64,000 bases of DNA from Rhodopseudomonas sp. P2A-2r (GTDB lineage: Bacteria; Pseudomonadota; Alphaproteobacteria; Rhizobiales; Xanthobacteraceae), in contig NZ_CP110389.1 of assembly GCF_026015985.1 (NCBI RefSeq), positions 5,364,001-5,428,000 on the forward strand, in the 5' to 3' direction. Each line of letters starts with the position of its first letter. Position 1 is the first letter of the stretch. Both the position numbers and the translations under genes were made by a program. A model generated the notes under the pieces. That model had not been told where the DNA came from, made no database searches, and worked only from the letters and a program-made list of their open reading frames with translations. Of the stretch, positions 4,988 through 33,502 are shown piece after piece.

Positions 4988-5251
4988 CTAAAGCCCGCAA
5001 CGCAGCATCGCAAGAAGCTTGGGCAAAACACGCCGCATCAGACGGGCTTTTTTGCCGATTTTGTCCGGAGCGAGCGGCATCGATGGCAATTCAGTCGATT
5101 TTTCGCGAATGCCGCTGAGCGACAGCCTGACGGCCGCATAGGTCAGCGCTGCTGCATAGCGTTCGCGAAAGAGTGATCGCGGCGCCGCGCCGATGAACGT
5201 CGTGCCATCGTCGCGATGCGGCATGGCGCGGCGCATGGCATGATCTTTCAC
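4988..5251 (-). CDS. Possible small hypothetical protein
   Basis: A minus-strand reading frame of up to 87 residues fills part of the 430-base gap between aatA and the glutathione transferase. It has a basic C-terminus (KIGKKARLMRRVLPKLL) and a second possible start at residue 11. I recognise no domain and no strong ribosome-binding site. The rest of the gap shows no other gene. In this GC-rich sequence an open frame of this size can arise by chance, so this is a weak call. Confidence 0.25.
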   Translation of the reverse strand: MKDHAMRRAMPHRDDGTTFIGAAPRSLFRERYAAALTYAAVRLSLSGIREKSTELPSMPLAPDKIGKKARLMRRVLPKLLAMLRCGL

Positions 5252-5384: not shown

Positions 5385-6041
5385 ATGTACAAGCTCTACT
5401 CCATGCAGCGATCCGGCAACAGCTACAAGGTCCGCCTTGCGCTGGCGTTTCTGGGCGCGCCCTATCGCGCCGTCGAGGTCGATATTCTGCGTGGCGAAAG
5501 CCGCACCCCTGACTTTCTCGCCATGAATCCGAGCGGCCAGGTGCCGCTGCTCGAGGTCGCCGAAGGCCGCTTCCTGGCCGAGTCCAATGCCATCCTGTGG
5601 TATGTGGCCATCGGCACGTCGCTGGCGCCGGAATCCCGCATGGACCGCGCCGAGGCGCTGCAGTGGATGTTCTTCGAACAGCACGCGCTGGAGCCGAATA
5701 TCGGCGCCGCCTATTTCTGGCTGTGCCTGGTCAAGGGCGGCCGCGATCTGCAGACCCACGCGCTGGAAGACTGGATGGAGCGCGGCTACGCGGCGCTGCA
5801 GGTGATGGATAACCATCTCAACACCAACGACTACTTCGCCGCCGGGCAGCTCACCATCGCCGACATCGCGCTGTACGGCTATACCCACGTCGCCGAGCAA
5901 TGCGATTTCGACCTGTCCACCTTCCCGTCGATCCGGCGCTGGCTGCGTCGCGTCGAGCAGGAACCCGGCTTCGTCTCCATGGCCGAACGCGCCGGCGCGG
6001 TTGCGGATCTCGATACCGCAGCAGCTGCCGCCGAGGCATAA
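5385..6041 (+). CDS. Glutathione S-transferase family protein
   Basis: A 218-residue cytosolic GST. The N-terminal thioredoxin-like domain opens with YKLYSMQRSGNSYKVRLAL, has NPSGQVPLLEV (the cis-proline before the glutathione-binding loop) and FLAESNAIL, where Glu-Ser contact the gamma-glutamyl group. The C-terminal helical domain contains TIADIALYGYTH, the usual N-capping box. It conjugates or transfers glutathione onto an unknown electrophile. No partner gene nearby indicates the substrate. Confidence 0.88.
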   Translation: MYKLYSMQRSGNSYKVRLALAFLGAPYRAVEVDILRGESRTPDFLAMNPSGQVPLLEVAEGRFLAESNAILWYVAIGTSLAPESRMDRAEALQWMFFEQHALEPNIGAAYFWLCLVKGGRDLQTHALEDWMERGYAALQVMDNHLNTNDYFAAGQLTIADIALYGYTHVAEQCDFDLSTFPSIRRWLRRVEQEPGFVSMAERAGAVADLDTAAAAAEA

Positions 6042-26359: not shown

Positions 26360-26552
26360 GCCGGCAAGAGGCCTCCGACCGGCGCAAGACAGAGCTATCA
26401 ACACCGGGAGGGGCCCGGCTCGCTTGAAGGCGCCGGGCTCGGTCACCAGCGTCGGAACAGCGCAGCTGAACCGGCGAGAGACTGCGGGTCCGACCATCAA
26501 TCGGGTGATCGGGAGACCTTTTTCGACGGCCTTTTCCCCCCATATTGGTGTC

Positions 26553-29500
26553 ATGGCGAAAAATCCCGACTCCCCCAAGAAGACCGTCACCAAGCGCGCG
26601 AAGACCCCCGCGGCCAAACCCGGCGCAGGGCGGCCCGAGGTCAAGCCGATCGGCCCGGCACTTGCGGAACTGCTGAATCCCGCGATCAACCGCGGCGATG
26701 CCGGCATGGGTTCCGGCACCGGGCTGCAGCCGCCACCGGGCAATTCGCTGGAACGCCGCTCCGGCGGCGAGGCCGCGATCCATCGCGCCCGCGCCTCGAC
26801 GCCGAAGAAGTTCGAAGGCGACGCCGGCGCGCGCCCAACGCCGCTGCAGCCGTTTCCGCAGCCCGCAGTGGCACCCTACGCGCCCCGCCTGAGCGAACAG
26901 GCCTTCGAGGAGGCCCCGCAGGCGGTCTATGGCACCCATGCGGCGATTCCGGAACTCGATCCGGAACTGGCAAAACAGCTCGGCTTCACCACCGAGGAAG
27001 ACGACAACGCCGCACTGGCGCGTCCGCCGCGCAACAAGATGGAAGCCCTGGGCGTGCAGGCCACCGCCGACGCGCTGGAGGCGCTGGTGCGCGACGGCCG
27101 TCCGGAATTCAAGGACGAGAAGATCTGGGTGCCGCACCGCCCACCACGGCCGGAGAAATCCGAGGGTGGCGTGCCGTTCGTGATCAAGTCGGAATACGAG
27201 CCGAAGGGCGACCAGCCCACCGCCATCAAGGAACTGGTGGAGGGCGTACAGCGCAACGACCGCACCCAGGTGCTGCTCGGAGTCACCGGCTCCGGCAAGA
27301 CCTACACGATGGCCAAGGTGATCGAGGCGACGCAGCGCCCGGCGATCATCCTCGCGCCCAACAAGACGCTGGCGGCGCAGCTCTATGGCGAGTTCAAGAG
27401 CTTCTTCCCCGACAACGCCGTCGAGTATTTTGTCAGCTATTACGACTACTACCAGCCCGAGGCCTATGTGCCGCGGACCGACACCTATATCGAGAAGGAT
27501 TCGTCCATCAACGAGCAGATCGACCGCATGCGCCATTCGGCAACGCGCGCGCTGCTGGAGCGCGACGACGTCATCATCGTCGCGTCCGTCTCGTGCATCT
27601 ACGGTATCGGCTCGGTCGAGACCTACACCGCAATGACGTTTGCGCTTAAGAAGGGCGAGCGCATCGACCAGCGGCAATTGATCGCCGATCTGGTGGCGCT
27701 GCAGTACAAGCGCACCCAGCACGATTTTACCCGCGGCACCTTCCGTGTCAGAGGCGACGTCATCGATATCTTCCCGGCGCATTACGAAGACCGCGCCTGG
27801 CGCGTCAACCTGTTCGGCGACACCGTGGAGACCATCGAGGAATTCGACCCGCTCACCGGCCACAAGCAGGACGAGCTGGAATTCATCAAGATCTACGCCA
27901 ACTCGCATTACGTGACGCCGCGCCCGACCCTGATCCAGGCCATCAAGTCGATCAAGGCCGAACTGAAATGGCGGCTCGAGCAACTGCACGAACAGGGTCG
28001 CCTGCTGGAAGCGCAGCGGCTGGAGCAGCGCACCACCTTCGACATCGAGATGATGGAAGCCACCGGCTCCTGCGCCGGCATCGAGAACTACTCGCGCTAT
28101 CTCACCGGCCGCCGGCCGGGCGAACCGCCGCCGACCCTGTTCGAATACGTGCCGGACAATGCGCTGGTGTTCGCCGACGAGAGCCACGTGACCGTGCCGC
28201 AGATCGGCGGCATGTTCAAAGGCGACTTCCGGCGCAAGGCGACGCTTGCGGAATACGGCTTCCGCCTGCCCTCCTGCATGGACAACCGGCCGCTGCGTTT
28301 CGAGGAATGGGACATGATGCGCCCGCAGTCGGTCGCAGTGTCGGCCACGCCGAGCGCGTGGGAGCTCAACGAGAGCGGCGGCGTGTTCGTCGAGCAGGTC
28401 ATTCGCCCGACAGGACTGATCGATCCGCCGATCAACATCCGCCCTGCCCGCACCCAGGTCGACGATCTCGTCGGCGAGGTTCGCGCCACCGCCAACGCCG
28501 GCTATCGCAGCCTGATCACCGTGCTGACAAAACGCATGGCGGAGGATCTCACCGAATACCTGCACGAGCAGGGCATCCGCGTGCGCTACATGCACTCGGA
28601 CATCGACACCATCGAGCGCATCGAGATCATCAGGGATCTCCGCCTCGGCGCCTTCGACGCGTTGGTCGGCATCAACCTGCTGCGCGAGGGCCTCGACATT
28701 CCCGAATGCGCGCTGGTGGCGATCCTCGACGCGGACAAGGAAGGCTTTCTGCGCTCCGAGACCTCGCTGATCCAGACCATCGGCCGCGCCGCGCGCAACG
28801 TCGACGGCAAGGTGATCCTCTATGCCGACAGGGTGACGGGCTCCATGGAGCGCGCCATCGCCGAGACCGACCGGCGCCGCGAAAAGCAGGTCGAGTACAA
28901 CACGCTGCATGGCATCACGCCGGAGAGCATCAAGAAGTCGATCGGCGACATCATGAACTCGGTCTACGAGCGCGATCACGTGCTGGTGGAAATCGGCGGC
29001 GGCAAGGGCCATTCCTGGTCGGACGACGTCAGCAGCATCGGCCACAATTTCGAGGCGGTGCTGGCCGATCTCGAAACCCGCATGCGCGAGGCCGCCGCCG
29101 ACCTCAACTTCGAGGAAGCCGCGCGGCTGCGCGACGAGGTCAAGCGCCTGCGCGCCACCGAGCTGGCCGTGGTCGACGACCCCACCGCCAAGCAACGCAA
29201 GGTGGCCGGCGCCGCCGGTGCCTTCAAGGGCAACAAGCAGTTCGGCGCCTCCGCCAACATGCCGAAGCAATCGAGCGAGCGCGGCGGCAACAACACGCCA
29301 TCATCCAAAGTGCACAAGCCCGATCTCGACGAAATGGGTATCGCCGGCTGGCACGAGGTCAAGCCCGCGCGCGGCAACAAGGTCGCGCGCCCGCGCAAGC
29401 CGACGCTGGATGAGATGGGCCCGGGCACCGAGAGCAAGATCTATCAGCCGCAGAGCATGACGGAGTCGATGCCCAACGCGCTGCCGAAATCGCGCAAGAC

Positions 29501-29627
29501 TGCGCCTTCCGACGGAAGCAAGATCATCCAGCCCACCAACTCGCGGGAGTCCGGCCCGGAATTCGGACCGGTGGCAAGAAGCTCCGGCGGCGCGCCGGGG
29601 CATCGCGGCGGATGGAAGAAGCGATAG
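26553..29627 (+). CDS. uvrB: Excinuclease ABC subunit UvrB with long N- and C-terminal extensions
   Basis: A 1024-residue UvrB; the family norm is about 670-700. Residues 209-871 are the canonical helicase-like damage-verification subunit: [17 protein letters not shown], Walker A GVTGSGKT (243-250), [11 protein letters not shown] (beta-hairpin), DESHVTVPQ (Walker B), IGRAARN (motif VI), and the C-terminal UVR motif [16 protein letters not shown] that binds UvrC. The first ~208 residues are Pro/Ala/Lys-rich and probably disordered. The last ~153 residues contain repeated short motifs (KPDLDEMG / KPTLDEMG and SKIYQP / SKIIQP). The start at 26553 is the first ATG after a non-conserved stretch. 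Works with UvrA and UvrC in nucleotide excision repair. Confidence 0.93.
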
Positions 29628-29798: not shown

Positions 29799-30413
29799 AT
29801 GCCGCATCGTCGCTTCGCCCTGCCCGCCCTCATGCTCTTCCTCGCCACGCCCTCTTACGCCCAGCAACCAACCCCGCCGCTGACCCTCGCCTGCAGCGGC
29901 CCGTTCGCAAAAGATTCCTCCCACGGACGCCTTCAGCAGACCTTCGGCGCGCCGAACGTCGCGATCCAGAAAGTCGACGGTGCCGAGGGCGAGAGCTTTG
30001 AAGCCAGCGTTCTCTATCGCTCCACCCCGGAGAAGCGGCTGGAAGTCGCCTGGAGCGACGACAGGAAACGCAGCGGGCTCGCATCGGCCAGTGTGAAAAA
30101 GCCCTCCGCCTGGAGCGGCCCCGAAGGCATCCGCGTGGGCATGACGCTGGACGAGGTCACCCGCCTCAACGGTCAGCCGTTCAAACTCAACGGCTTCGAA
30201 TGGGACTACGGCGGCTTCGTCGTCGACCTCAAGGGCAAGCTCGCCATCCTGCCCGGCGGCTGCGCCATGACCCTGCGCTTCTCGCCCGGCATGGCGCTCG
30301 ACGCCAGGAAGCACGCCGGCCTGCTCGGCGAGAAGAAGCTGTCGTCGTCGGACGCCAAACTGCTGGCGGTGAAGCCGGTGCTGACGGAGTGGAGCGTGGG
30401 GTATGGGGAGTGA
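29799..30413 (+). CDS. Conserved secreted hypothetical protein
   Basis: A 204-residue protein with a signal peptide ending SYAQ (about residue 22). The mature part begins LTLACSGPFAKDSSH, has a paired cysteine later (GGCAMTL), and a central EGIRVGMTLDEVTRLNG typical of small periplasmic proteins with a BamE/SmpA-like beta-grasp helix turn. No family can be named with confidence. GGGGA precedes the start. It stands at the left border of an AT-richer accessory patch. Confidence 0.7.
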   Translation: MPHRRFALPALMLFLATPSYAQQPTPPLTLACSGPFAKDSSHGRLQQTFGAPNVAIQKVDGAEGESFEASVLYRSTPEKRLEVAWSDDRKRSGLASASVKKPSAWSGPEGIRVGMTLDEVTRLNGQPFKLNGFEWDYGGFVVDLKGKLAILPGGCAMTLRFSPGMALDARKHAGLLGEKKLSSSDAKLLAVKPVLTEWSVGYGE

Positions 30414-30487
30414 GGACGCGGCGTTTAGGTAACACAAGGATCAGCTTATCTACTGGCAATCTTGGTCAGCTCGTTTAGTTTGCAACG

Positions 30488-31255
30488 ATGAAGCTTGGAT
30501 TTGAAGAACCTCAATCCGCCTATTCGAGCAGTTCACAAAATGCGCGCTCGTGGACCGAGGCCTGGGTTAGCGCGTGGGCTTACTGCCCACACTGCGGAAA
30601 TGCCAAAGTTTCACAATTTCCGAACAACAGCCCTCTCGCGGATTTCTTCTGCACTTCATGCGATGAGGAATTCGAGCTTAAGAGTCAGAAAGGAAAATTC
30701 GGCAAGCGCGTTGTTGACGGCGCATTTAAGACCAAGGTCGAACGGCTTTCTGCGAGCAACAATCCCAAATTGCTTCTAATGAACTACGATCTGAAATCGC
30801 TTGCGGTCGTCAATCTGTTCATCATCCCGAAGCACTTTTTCGTCCGAGATACCATCGAGGAACGAAAGCCGTTAGCCGCCACTGCTCGGCGTGCTGGATG
30901 GATCGGATCGAACATCTTGCTCGGCCACGTGCCCGACACCGGCAAAATTCAAATTATCCGGGACGGCGTTATTCGCCCGAAAGACCTCGTGCTTAAGGAA
31001 TGGCAGAAGACGCTCTTTCTCAGAGAAGAGTCGCTCGAATCTCGCGGATGGTTGCTAGACGTTATGAAATGCGTTGAAGCGCTGGGCAAGCCGGAGTTCA
31101 CGCTCGACGATGTCTATGCGTTCGAACAGCATCTTAGCCATCGCTATCCCGACAACCAGAATGTTCGGCCGAAGATACGCCAGCAACTTCAATATCTCAG
31201 GGATCGTGGATTCGTTGAATTTGTCTCTCGAGGCAGTTATCGTCTGAGCAAATAG
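30488..31255 (+). CDS. DpnI-like type IIM restriction endonuclease (methyl-directed)
   Basis: A 255-residue homologue of DpnI, which cuts GATC only when the adenine is N6-methylated. It covers the full length. The N-terminal PD-(D/E)XK domain has paired zinc-ribbon cysteines (CPHC at 33-36, CTSC at 55-58) and the catalytic set Asp52...Glu63-x-Lys65 in LADFF and EFELKS, at the spacing of DpnI Asp53/Glu64/Lys66. KPLAATARRAGWIGSNI closely matches DpnI. The C-terminal winged-helix domain that reads m6A is present (EFTLDDVYAFE, RQQLQYLRDRGFVEF). No methyltransferase lies nearby, as expected for this type. Base composition is lower in GC than the neighbours, which suggests transfer. It would attack incoming Dam-methylated DNA. 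Confidence 0.92.
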   Translation: MKLGFEEPQSAYSSSSQNARSWTEAWVSAWAYCPHCGNAKVSQFPNNSPLADFFCTSCDEEFELKSQKGKFGKRVVDGAFKTKVERLSASNNPKLLLMNYDLKSLAVVNLFIIPKHFFVRDTIEERKPLAATARRAGWIGSNILLGHVPDTGKIQIIRDGVIRPKDLVLKEWQKTLFLREESLESRGWLLDVMKCVEALGKPEFTLDDVYAFEQHLSHRYPDNQNVRPKIRQQLQYLRDRGFVEFVSRGSYRLSK

Positions 31256-31265
31256 GAGCCGCGCC

Positions 31266-31538
31266 ATGGCTTGGTTTCTCAATCACTATAAGTGCGAACG
31301 CGGCAAGCGCCGGTGGGCTGACGAATGGTCTTGCATGTGCGACGATGAATGTCCGCATTGTGGCGCCCGGTACATGACGCCCCACACCAGCGAAGACCTC
31401 ACCACCCTGATTGAACAGGAAGGATCGAATTTCGTAGTCCGCTGGTCGCCCGAGACGGCGGAACACGATCCGGATTATCGGGTGCTCGGATACTTCCCGA
31501 CCGAGCAGGAGGCGATCGCGTTTCTGTCTGCAGACTGA
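31266..31538 (+). CDS. Small zinc-ribbon hypothetical protein
   Basis: A 90-residue protein that starts ten bases after the DpnI-like stop; the stop codon TAG is part of its TAGGAG ribosome-binding site, so the two are co-transcribed and probably translationally coupled. The N-terminal half has cysteines and WADEWSC, CMCDDECPHCGARY, a plausible zinc ribbon. The C-terminal half has VVRWSPETAEHDPDYRVLGYFPTEQEAIAFL. I recall similar small proteins without a restriction gene in related bacteria, so a role in restriction is not established. Function unknown. Confidence 0.75.
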   Translation: MAWFLNHYKCERGKRRWADEWSCMCDDECPHCGARYMTPHTSEDLTTLIEQEGSNFVVRWSPETAEHDPDYRVLGYFPTEQEAIAFLSAD

Positions 31539-31600
31539 CTTTTCACCATCCACATCTCGACAATATTCCTACAAGACTATATACCCCCCGTCGTCCTGCT

Positions 31601-31854
31601 CAAGAGGGGCGCTTCTCGAGGGCGCTCGTTGAGTGGAGCGGGATGCGGCGCCTGCGGGCGGGGTTCGCAGCCCTGCACTCGGGAGGCCGGGGGTCGCCGT
31701 CCGGGCCCACTACGGGGCTCTGCCTTCAATGGCCGGACGGGTGCGGGTGAAGGCGGGGAAATCCCGCCGGATCGATTGGCAGCTCCAACCCGCAAGGGGG
31801 CGAGCACAGTGCCTCCCGTACCCGGAAGCACGGTCCTCCGGACAGAAATCGCCG
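31601..31854 (-). repeat. Dispersed ~250-base repeat, copy 2 (inverted)
   Basis: Reverse complement of this stretch aligns in order with 11535-11776, sharing the blocks CCGTGCTTCCGGG, CCGGCGGGATTTCCCCGCCT, AAGGCAGA, CGGACGGC, CCTCCCGAGTGC, CCCGCAGGCGCC and CGCCCCTC. Open frames inside it are not conserved between the two copies, so it is treated as non-coding. Confidence 0.75.
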
Positions 31855-32248: not shown

Positions 32249-33502
32249 CTACACCCGCTCGATGATGATCGCCGGCGCCATGCCGCCGGCGGCGCACATG
32301 GTCACCAGGCCGCGCTTCAGGTTGCGGCGCTCGAGTTCGTCGAGCACGGTGCCGATCAGGATCGCCCCTGTCGCGCCGATGGGATGGCCAAGCGCGATGG
32401 AGCCGCCGTTGACGTTGACCTTGGCGCGGTCGAGCTTGAGGTCGCGGATGAACTTTTCAGCCACAACGGCAAAGGCCTCGTTGATCTCCCAGAGGTCGAT
32501 GTCATCGACAGTCAGCCCGGCTTTTGCGAGCACTTTTCGCGCAGCAGGGACCGGTGCGTTCAACATCAAGGTCGGGTCGTCGCCGATATTGGCCATGGCC
32601 ACGATGCGCGCGCGCGGCTTCAGGCCGTGCTTGTCGGCATAGTCCTTGGAGGTCAGCAGCAAGGCTGCGGCGCCGTCGACCACGCCCGACGAATTGCCGG
32701 CGTGATGAAAGTGCTCGATCTTGAGGTCGGGATATTTCTGGTTGATCTGCTTGCGATAGGTCGTGCCGTCCGCATCCAGCGGATGATCGGCAATGGCGGC
32801 GAAGGCCGGCTTCAGGCCGGCGAGGCCTTCGGCTGTGGTGTTGGGCCGCGGGAATTCATCCTTCGCCAGAACCACATTGCCTTCATCGTCCTTCACCGGA
32901 ATGAGGCTCTTGTCGAAGCGCCCTTCGGCGATGGCGACCGCGGCGCGGCGCTGGCTCTCCAGGCCGAGTGCATCGAGCGCTTCCCGCGAAATGCCTTCCA
33001 TGGAGGCGATGGCGTCGCCGCAGATGCCCTGATGCGACTGCGGATGCACCTGCGCGAGCCGCTTGTTGCCCGAGCCCATGCCGAGCGGCGGCTTGCCGGC
33101 GGCCATGTCCTCGGCGGCCATCGCTCCCGTGAGCGACATCATCTCGGTGCCGCCGGCGATCACCACATCTTCCATGCCGCTCATGATCTGCGCCGCCGCG
33201 AAGTTCACTGCGGTGATACCGCCGCCGCAGAACCGGTCCAGCGTCGTGCCGGACGCCTTGATATCGTAGCCGGCGTCGAGCGCGGCCATGCGGCCAAGGT
33301 CGCCGCCCTGCTTGCCGCGCTGGGTCGAGGTCGACCAGATGACGTCGTCGACATCCGCGGTATTGAGGTGGTTGCGCTCGGCGATGGCCTTGAGCACGGT
33401 AGCCGCGAGATGCTGCGGATGATGCTCGGCGAGCGCGCCCTTGCCGACCTTGCCGATGCCGCGCGGCGTGCGGACTGCGTCGATGATATAGGCGTCGGCC
33501 AT
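32249..33502 (-). CDS. Acetyl-CoA acyltransferase (thiolase)
   Basis: A 417-residue thiolase that forms or cleaves 3-ketoacyl-CoA. Catalytic residues are visible: nucleophile Cys92 in DRFCGGGITAVN, His373 in GHPIGATGA and the second Cys403 in MCAAGGMAPA; NEAFAV is also present. Length is slightly above the ~392 norm because of an insert after residue 200. The family includes both biosynthetic PhaA-type and degradative FadA-type enzymes; with no beta-oxidation or phaB gene beside it the direction is not clear. GGGAG precedes the start. Confidence 0.9.
   Translation of the reverse strand: MADAYIIDAVRTPRGIGKVGKGALAEHHPQHLAATVLKAIAERNHLNTADVDDVIWSTSTQRGKQGGDLGRMAALDAGYDIKASGTTLDRFCGGGITAVNFAAAQIMSGMEDVVIAGGTEMMSLTGAMAAEDMAAGKPPLGMGSGNKRLAQVHPQSHQGICGDAIASMEGISREALDALGLESQRRAAVAIAEGRFDKSLIPVKDDEGNVVLAKDEFPRPNTTAEGLAGLKPAFAAIADHPLDADGTTYRKQINQKYPDLKIEHFHHAGNSSGVVDGAAALLLTSKDYADKHGLKPRARIVAMANIGDDPTLMLNAPVPAARKVLAKAGLTVDDIDLWEINEAFAVVAEKFIRDLKLDRAKVNVNGGSIALGHPIGATGAILIGTVLDELERRNLKRGLVTMCAAGGMAPAIIIERV

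Follow-up and report, generated by a model that had tools for sequence, protein, structure and literature searches.

A DpnI-family gene and a small zinc-ribbon-like companion as a probable two-gene restriction module downstream of uvrB in Rhodopseudomonas sp. P2A-2r

The locus examined here raises the question of whether a DpnI homologue in an alphaproteobacterium is a solitary and recently acquired enzyme or one part of an older arrangement. It lies in a stretch of 64,000 nucleotides from Rhodopseudomonas sp. P2A-2r (contig NZ_CP110389.1, positions 5,364,001 to 5,428,000), hereafter the window, in which dpnI occupies 30488..31255 on the forward strand and is followed on the same strand by an open reading frame (ORF) of 90 codons, p90 (31266..31538). 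An earlier, sequence-only reading of this DNA had called the enzyme an orphan, a description that is not supported, given the conserved second gene, p90, downstream of it. We consider it highly probable that dpnI and p90 form a two-gene restriction module in an exchangeable site downstream of uvrB.

The dpnI ORF is intact and encodes a product of 255 amino acids with a PD-(D/E)xK nuclease domain and a winged helix. Both Pfam domains are matched in full, the nuclease domain PF06044 with 222.6 bits over residues 9-180 (cut-off 26.7) and the winged-helix domain PF17726 with 107.9 bits over residues 184-252 (cut-off 23). The PADLOC model mREase_II (methyl-directed type II restriction enzyme) gives 318 bits, and the solved DpnI of Streptococcus pneumoniae (PDB 4esj and 4kyw) aligns with residues 9-252 at E 7e-77 and 261 bits. 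The residue comparison covered 25 homologues chosen by hand, three of which were taken from the phylum sample and belong to families other than that of the host. Throughout this set, D52, E63, K65, C33, C36, C55, C58 and W138 are invariant and the recognition-helix stretch KIRQQLQxLR is mostly so. D52, E63 and K65 are presumably the catalytic residues, an assignment already made in the earlier reading. The identification as DpnI, with an Asp-Glu-x-Lys site, both Cys pairs and a winged helix, is thus borne out, as is the statement that no methyltransferase is adjacent, since none was found among the neighboring ORFs scanned and the PF01555 genes of the host lie elsewhere. Judged by its sequence, the enzyme is an ordinary new member of the known DpnI family; over residues 9-252 it is like the pneumococcal enzyme in its catalytic residues, Cys pairs and winged helix, and it differs in having p90 behind it and uvrB upstream.

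The p90 ORF begins 10 nt after the dpnI stop, and Pfam, NCBIfam, PADLOC and PHROGs all lack a match to its product, Pfam even at E 10. A protein search retrieved 543 homologues, and a few of the 120 listed carry a source name such as "predicted nucleic acid-binding Zn-ribbon protein". The family is marked by two CxxC knuckles, C10, C13 and C29 being invariant and C32 conserved in at least 90% of the 72 sequences of alignment A2, all of which have Cys13 and among which the p90 of the window is not included. An AlphaFold (AF2) model built on the near-identical protein P0121, with a predicted local distance difference test score (pLDDT) of 94, has six strands and one helix. Sequence and model together hint at a zinc ribbon of the Cys4 kind, with a small beta-alpha domain in addition. 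A restriction-modification controller (C) protein was considered and rejected, as the model contains no helix-turn-helix and Pfam gives no match. As far as our searches reached, p90 is undescribed. Two observations made by eye concern more distant relatives. A p90-like zinc ribbon is fused to a DUF3768-like domain on a contig labelled Planctomycetota (L145, 6001-6471), and in another genus diverged relatives are flanked by genes for an ABC transporter and an RNase H-like protein (L049, L050 and L051), possibly a housekeeping branch of the family.

The association of the two genes was surveyed in 296 genomes of the host's family. PF06044 is present in 20 of them, including two of the 18 in the host's genus; the gene is full length in 17, split over two contigs in G245, a contig-end fragment in G259 and a divergent partial match in G267. 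At the search's own cut of E 0.001, p90 was found in 37 genomes, 23 with a strong copy (E at most 1e-32, a cut of our choosing) and 14 with a weaker, diverged or ribbon-only one, and none of the latter 14 carries DpnI. Strong p90 occurs in 17 of the 18 genomes with an evident DpnI vs. 6 of 278 others (17 of 20 vs. 6 of 276 if all PF06044 genomes are counted; 17 of 18 vs. 20 of 278 for p90 at E 0.001). In all 17, p90 adjoins DpnI downstream on the same strand, the copy in G118 being shortened. In the class sample, p90 was absent from 288 other genomes, and among 384 other genomes none had a full-length DpnI match; the four matches obtained were weak or partial, although one of them (G461) is probably genuine and truncated where its contig ends. 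The phylum sample contained DpnI in three genomes of another family of the class (f65) and in further taxa. At the 14 PF06044 loci from the class and phylum samples no p90 was found, several of these loci being weak matches or having little flank.

A second survey, in which GTDB genomes were scanned with the p90 alignment, yielded 51 named loci, at least a dozen of which overlap the family survey. DpnI stands beside p90 in 42, a BglII-type gene in two and neither in seven. The 42 include DpnI genes cut by contig ends (such as L111 and L128), one that is frame-split (L104), and L101, which was recovered through a second p90 copy lying at a distance of 4 kb. p90 follows DpnI in 40 of them and precedes it in two (L142 and L143); the gap between the genes is 4-53 nt in 44 of 47 loci, with a maximum of 169 nt. 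The pair adjoins at uvrB and also at other places, in Mesorhizobium, Devosia and Rhizobiaceae loci, and between L088 and L099 a block of 89-98% identity spans DpnI and p90 while the flanking DNA on both sides has only background similarity. By genome comparison, p90 can be shown to have been kept and moved together with DpnI. The same p90 also stands directly downstream of BglII-type enzymes (PF09195; 112-146 bits) in L029, L041 and L044 of the family survey, two of which are the two BglII-type named loci; these enzymes belong to a different Pfam family from DpnI and, in L041, have a PF01555 methyltransferase gene upstream.

Expression signals were sought around both genes. In the window, a promoter-like block CTGGCAAT is followed by a -10-like TAGTTT (TANNNT), together at 30453..30481 on the forward strand; in an alignment of 18 chosen upstream regions (the window and 17 loci), the TA of this hexamer is invariant and its last T conserved in at least 90%. 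The TAGTTT ends 6 nt before the dpnI ATG, an arrangement which suggests that the dpnI messenger RNA may be leaderless. Before p90, a Shine-Dalgarno-like AGGAG (31254..31258, forward strand) overlaps the dpnI stop, and 29 of 47 loci have such a motif when it is loosely defined.

The conserved left flank of the site is uvrB (26424..29627, forward strand; named by eye, start codon unchecked). Of the 20 family genomes with DpnI, 14 have a uvrB relative upstream of it on the same strand, as do 27 of the 42 named DpnI loci, and the distance ranges from 38 nt to about 4 kb. Among the other 15 named loci, the upstream sequence is shorter than 1.3 kb in five; in the remaining ten it extends for about 5 kb or more and contains no uvrB. 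In the window, an ORF of 204 amino acids (29799..30413, forward strand), with no Pfam or NCBIfam match, separates uvrB from dpnI, and relatives or pieces of it occur near uvrB in four genomes of the genus (L183, L184, L186 and L187). On the right, a thiolase-like ORF (32249..33502, reverse strand; named by eye) is shared, by tblastn, with L175 and L177 of the same genus. What lies between uvrB and this ORF differs: the window has DpnI-p90 there, L175 a PrlF antitoxin gene and L177 a gene with an FRG domain. No DpnI match is present in 16 of the 18 genus genomes, and the uvrB flanks of the 14 of these that were fetched contain neither DpnI nor p90. For 13 of these flanks, 57 ORFs were listed within 3.5 kb after uvrB and 41 were scanned. 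Five of the 13 carry matches to defence or toxin-antitoxin families, and for this reason the site looks exchangeable. They comprise L175, in which the ORF next to the PrlF gene is most likely the source of the sole YhaV match; L186, with an ORF 75% identical to the PrlF ORF of L175 and most likely the second PrlF match; L177, in which the FRG-domain gene is PDC-S15-like; L179 (2678-4405), with a reverse transcriptase that has a C-terminal RNase H domain (PADLOC RT_UG17, 131 bits); and L187, with an OLD-like ATPase. The PADLOC reverse transcriptase and ATPase models are broad, so these are candidates; the remaining relatives have ordinary or unnamed genes after uvrB. The last 150-160 nt of uvrB are repeated just before DpnI in L112 (91%; 5020-5178, locus strand) and L082 (77%; 5708-5850, reverse complement), a possible trace of cassette entry into the site. 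As a separate observation, the predicted protein P0032 (441 amino acids) joins a DpnI in frame to a UVR domain and looks UvrB-like by eye.

By homology, the winged helix would read N6-methyladenine in GATC and the D-E-x-K site would then cut the methylated DNA; Dam-type-methylated DNA would be destroyed, and the host's own DNA, probably without the mark, spared. The host genome (one contig, 6.74 Mb) was searched throughout for relevant methylases. No Dam-type methylase emerged from two family searches, with PF02086 and PF05869, whereas the controls of these searches matched in 4 and 1 of 14 genomes, respectively; PF05063 gave no match either, but its control was silent and the result carries little weight. 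Two PF01555 genes are present, both distant from the window. One is CcrM-like by eye (L001, 1378-2277, at about 6.08 Mb of contig C1); its ORF ends at 299 amino acids and CcrM-like C-terminal sequence goes on in another frame, so that either the frameshift is genuine or the sequence contains a mistake. The expectation of a host without Dam is supported by the empty PF02086 and PF05869 searches and the presence of the CcrM-like gene, and the claim that a resident DpnI is safe for the host is supported, not proven. Mutual avoidance of DpnI and Dam was not shown in the family, PF02086 being present in 40 of 296 genomes with an overlap of two of the 20 DpnI genomes (Fisher p = 1.0).

Several observations weigh against a conserved module of this kind. 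The p90 of the window has Gly13 and so is without one of the four likely zinc ligands. G047 has DpnI without p90 within 1.27 kb downstream. The seven named p90 loci without either enzyme comprise L113, L126 and L132, in which p90 is near full-length or shortened, and L145, L147, L148 and L149, which match only the first 42-55 residues; four strong family copies (G005, G050, G052 and G172) likewise have neither enzyme nearby, with no systematic search having been made for other enzyme types. p90 diverges faster than DpnI (26% vs. 4% between L115 and L118). On the side of the enzyme, the second host PF01555 methylase (L002) would render DpnI dangerous if it made Gm6ATC, and G199 holds DpnI together with one real-looking PF02086 gene. 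Finally, the characterised Sinorhizobium phage methylases covered by the available part of one report target GANTC, not GATC (PMC5537653).

Within the proposed dpnI-p90 module, p90 may act on DNA or at the level of expression; it might bind the substrate or the ends, or else DNA or RNA of the operon itself. Since it is paired with two Pfam families of endonuclease and no copy was found beside the DpnI genes of other taxa, it would be an accessory rather than an obligate subunit. Whether p90 founds a previously undescribed family of restriction companions, serving DpnI-type and BglII-type enzymes (the known relatives of which share a GATC core) by restraining or aiding them on DNA, is in our judgement finely balanced, and we lean slightly against it. 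The likeliest single role, though in our view less probable than not, is modulation or restraint of the nuclease, with p90 as an immunity or restraint factor that limits toxicity and sometimes outlasts the enzyme. Its position a short gap after the enzyme gene is in keeping with this, as is its presence in L113, L126 and L132 without a DpnI or BglII-type enzyme. In L132 (G052), a 19-amino-acid match to the DpnI N-terminus remains upstream of p90 (63%, E 0.002), as if the enzyme gene had been lost and p90 retained. Against restraint stand the faster divergence of p90 and the fact that the host has no known target of the enzyme, and so little need to be protected from it.

The age of the locus was addressed by comparing 27 loci, out of 58 submitted, in which DpnI, p90 and uvrB were long enough. 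The guanine-plus-cytosine (GC) content is 53-57% in two 1-kb segments over dpnI vs. about 65% around it, which, together with bordering repeats, the sequence-only reading had taken to suggest a recent gain. In every one of the 27 loci, DpnI has a lower GC content than uvrB (mean 54.6% vs. 65.8%), and DpnI distances follow those of uvrB (r 0.92 for 27 loci, 0.75 for the 23 closest), p90 distances correlating less (0.64 and 0.40, respectively). The low GC is therefore a standing trait and no sign of recent arrival. That the gene is nonetheless a recent foreign arrival in this strain seems to us unlikely. Its restriction to two genus genomes would fit such an arrival, as would the PrlF antitoxin gene at the same place in the genus member whose uvrB is most similar at its end (L175, G222) and the DpnI of G206, in the same genus, which has no uvrB within 5.2 kb upstream (L125); opposed to it are the results of the 27-locus comparison and the closest homologue among the matches listed, which is from Tardiphaga, at 85%. 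The patchy distribution of PF06044 makes local gain or loss at the site likely, and the DpnI locus is best described as being for the most part of long standing in the lineage, though frequently missing and to some extent exchanged.

That repeats border the gene is not supported as stated. On the downstream side, a dispersed non-coding repeat follows p90 (31559..31771, forward strand); the host genome has 16 such places when this one is counted, the other copies being 73-80% identical, and the repeat has no Rfam match and resembles DNA in the uvrB flanks of L177, L184, L186 and L187. Repeats on both sides were not recovered beyond weak, imperfect inverted pairs straddling dpnI (e.g., 31 nt at 74% and 20 nt at 90%, from a repeat finder run without a chance control), which we take for chance in GC-rich DNA.

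Two further accounts of p90 fare less well. Pneumococcal DpnI works alone. This speaks against p90 as a positive helper of cleavage, that is, a zinc-ribbon DNA-binding accessory aiding target search or processing by GATC-core enzymes, and the absence of p90 from all 14 PF06044 loci of other taxa (several weak or short-flanked) and its persistence at places without either enzyme make such a role unlikely. A p90 that merely travels as a neutral passenger in a defence hot spot, unrelated to DpnI, is very unlikely, for while other genes vary at the uvrB site and some p90 copies are solitary, the pair is found together at several genomic sites and with either gene first, and the block conserved between L088 and L099 stops at p90.

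Among known systems, a close parallel to the dpnI-p90 module is the neisserial dam-replacing gene (drg), a DpnI homologue at a cassette site beside leuS for which GmeATC cleavage was reported, according to the accessible part of PMC4269198. As described there, drg resembles the gene in the window in being low in GC relative to its genome and in occupying an exchangeable place beside a conserved gene, and the uvrB site recalls the "minimal mobile element" idea discussed for it, in which different cassettes share the same flanks (PMC4269198). It differs in that the conserved neighbor in the window is uvrB and a zinc-ribbon gene is added. In the available portion of a second report, winged-helix fusion endonucleases are N6-methyladenine-dependent type IV systems in which the winged helix is likewise the methyladenine sensor, and in 87% of inspected cases no methyltransferase lies within three genes on either side (PMC11037411). 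These have varied nuclease domains, and that portion mentions no small zinc-ribbon partner (PMC11037411).

Type II enzymes such as DpnI are commonly considered to need no partner. If it is true that two kinds of restriction enzyme have a conserved partner in common, there would be a layer of control or assistance that catalogues of defence systems have missed, p90 having no match in PADLOC. The uvrB-adjacent site would be a place in which to seek more defence genes in Bradyrhizobium and its relatives. In practical terms, plasmids from Dam+ E. coli may be cut on entering strains that carry such an enzyme.
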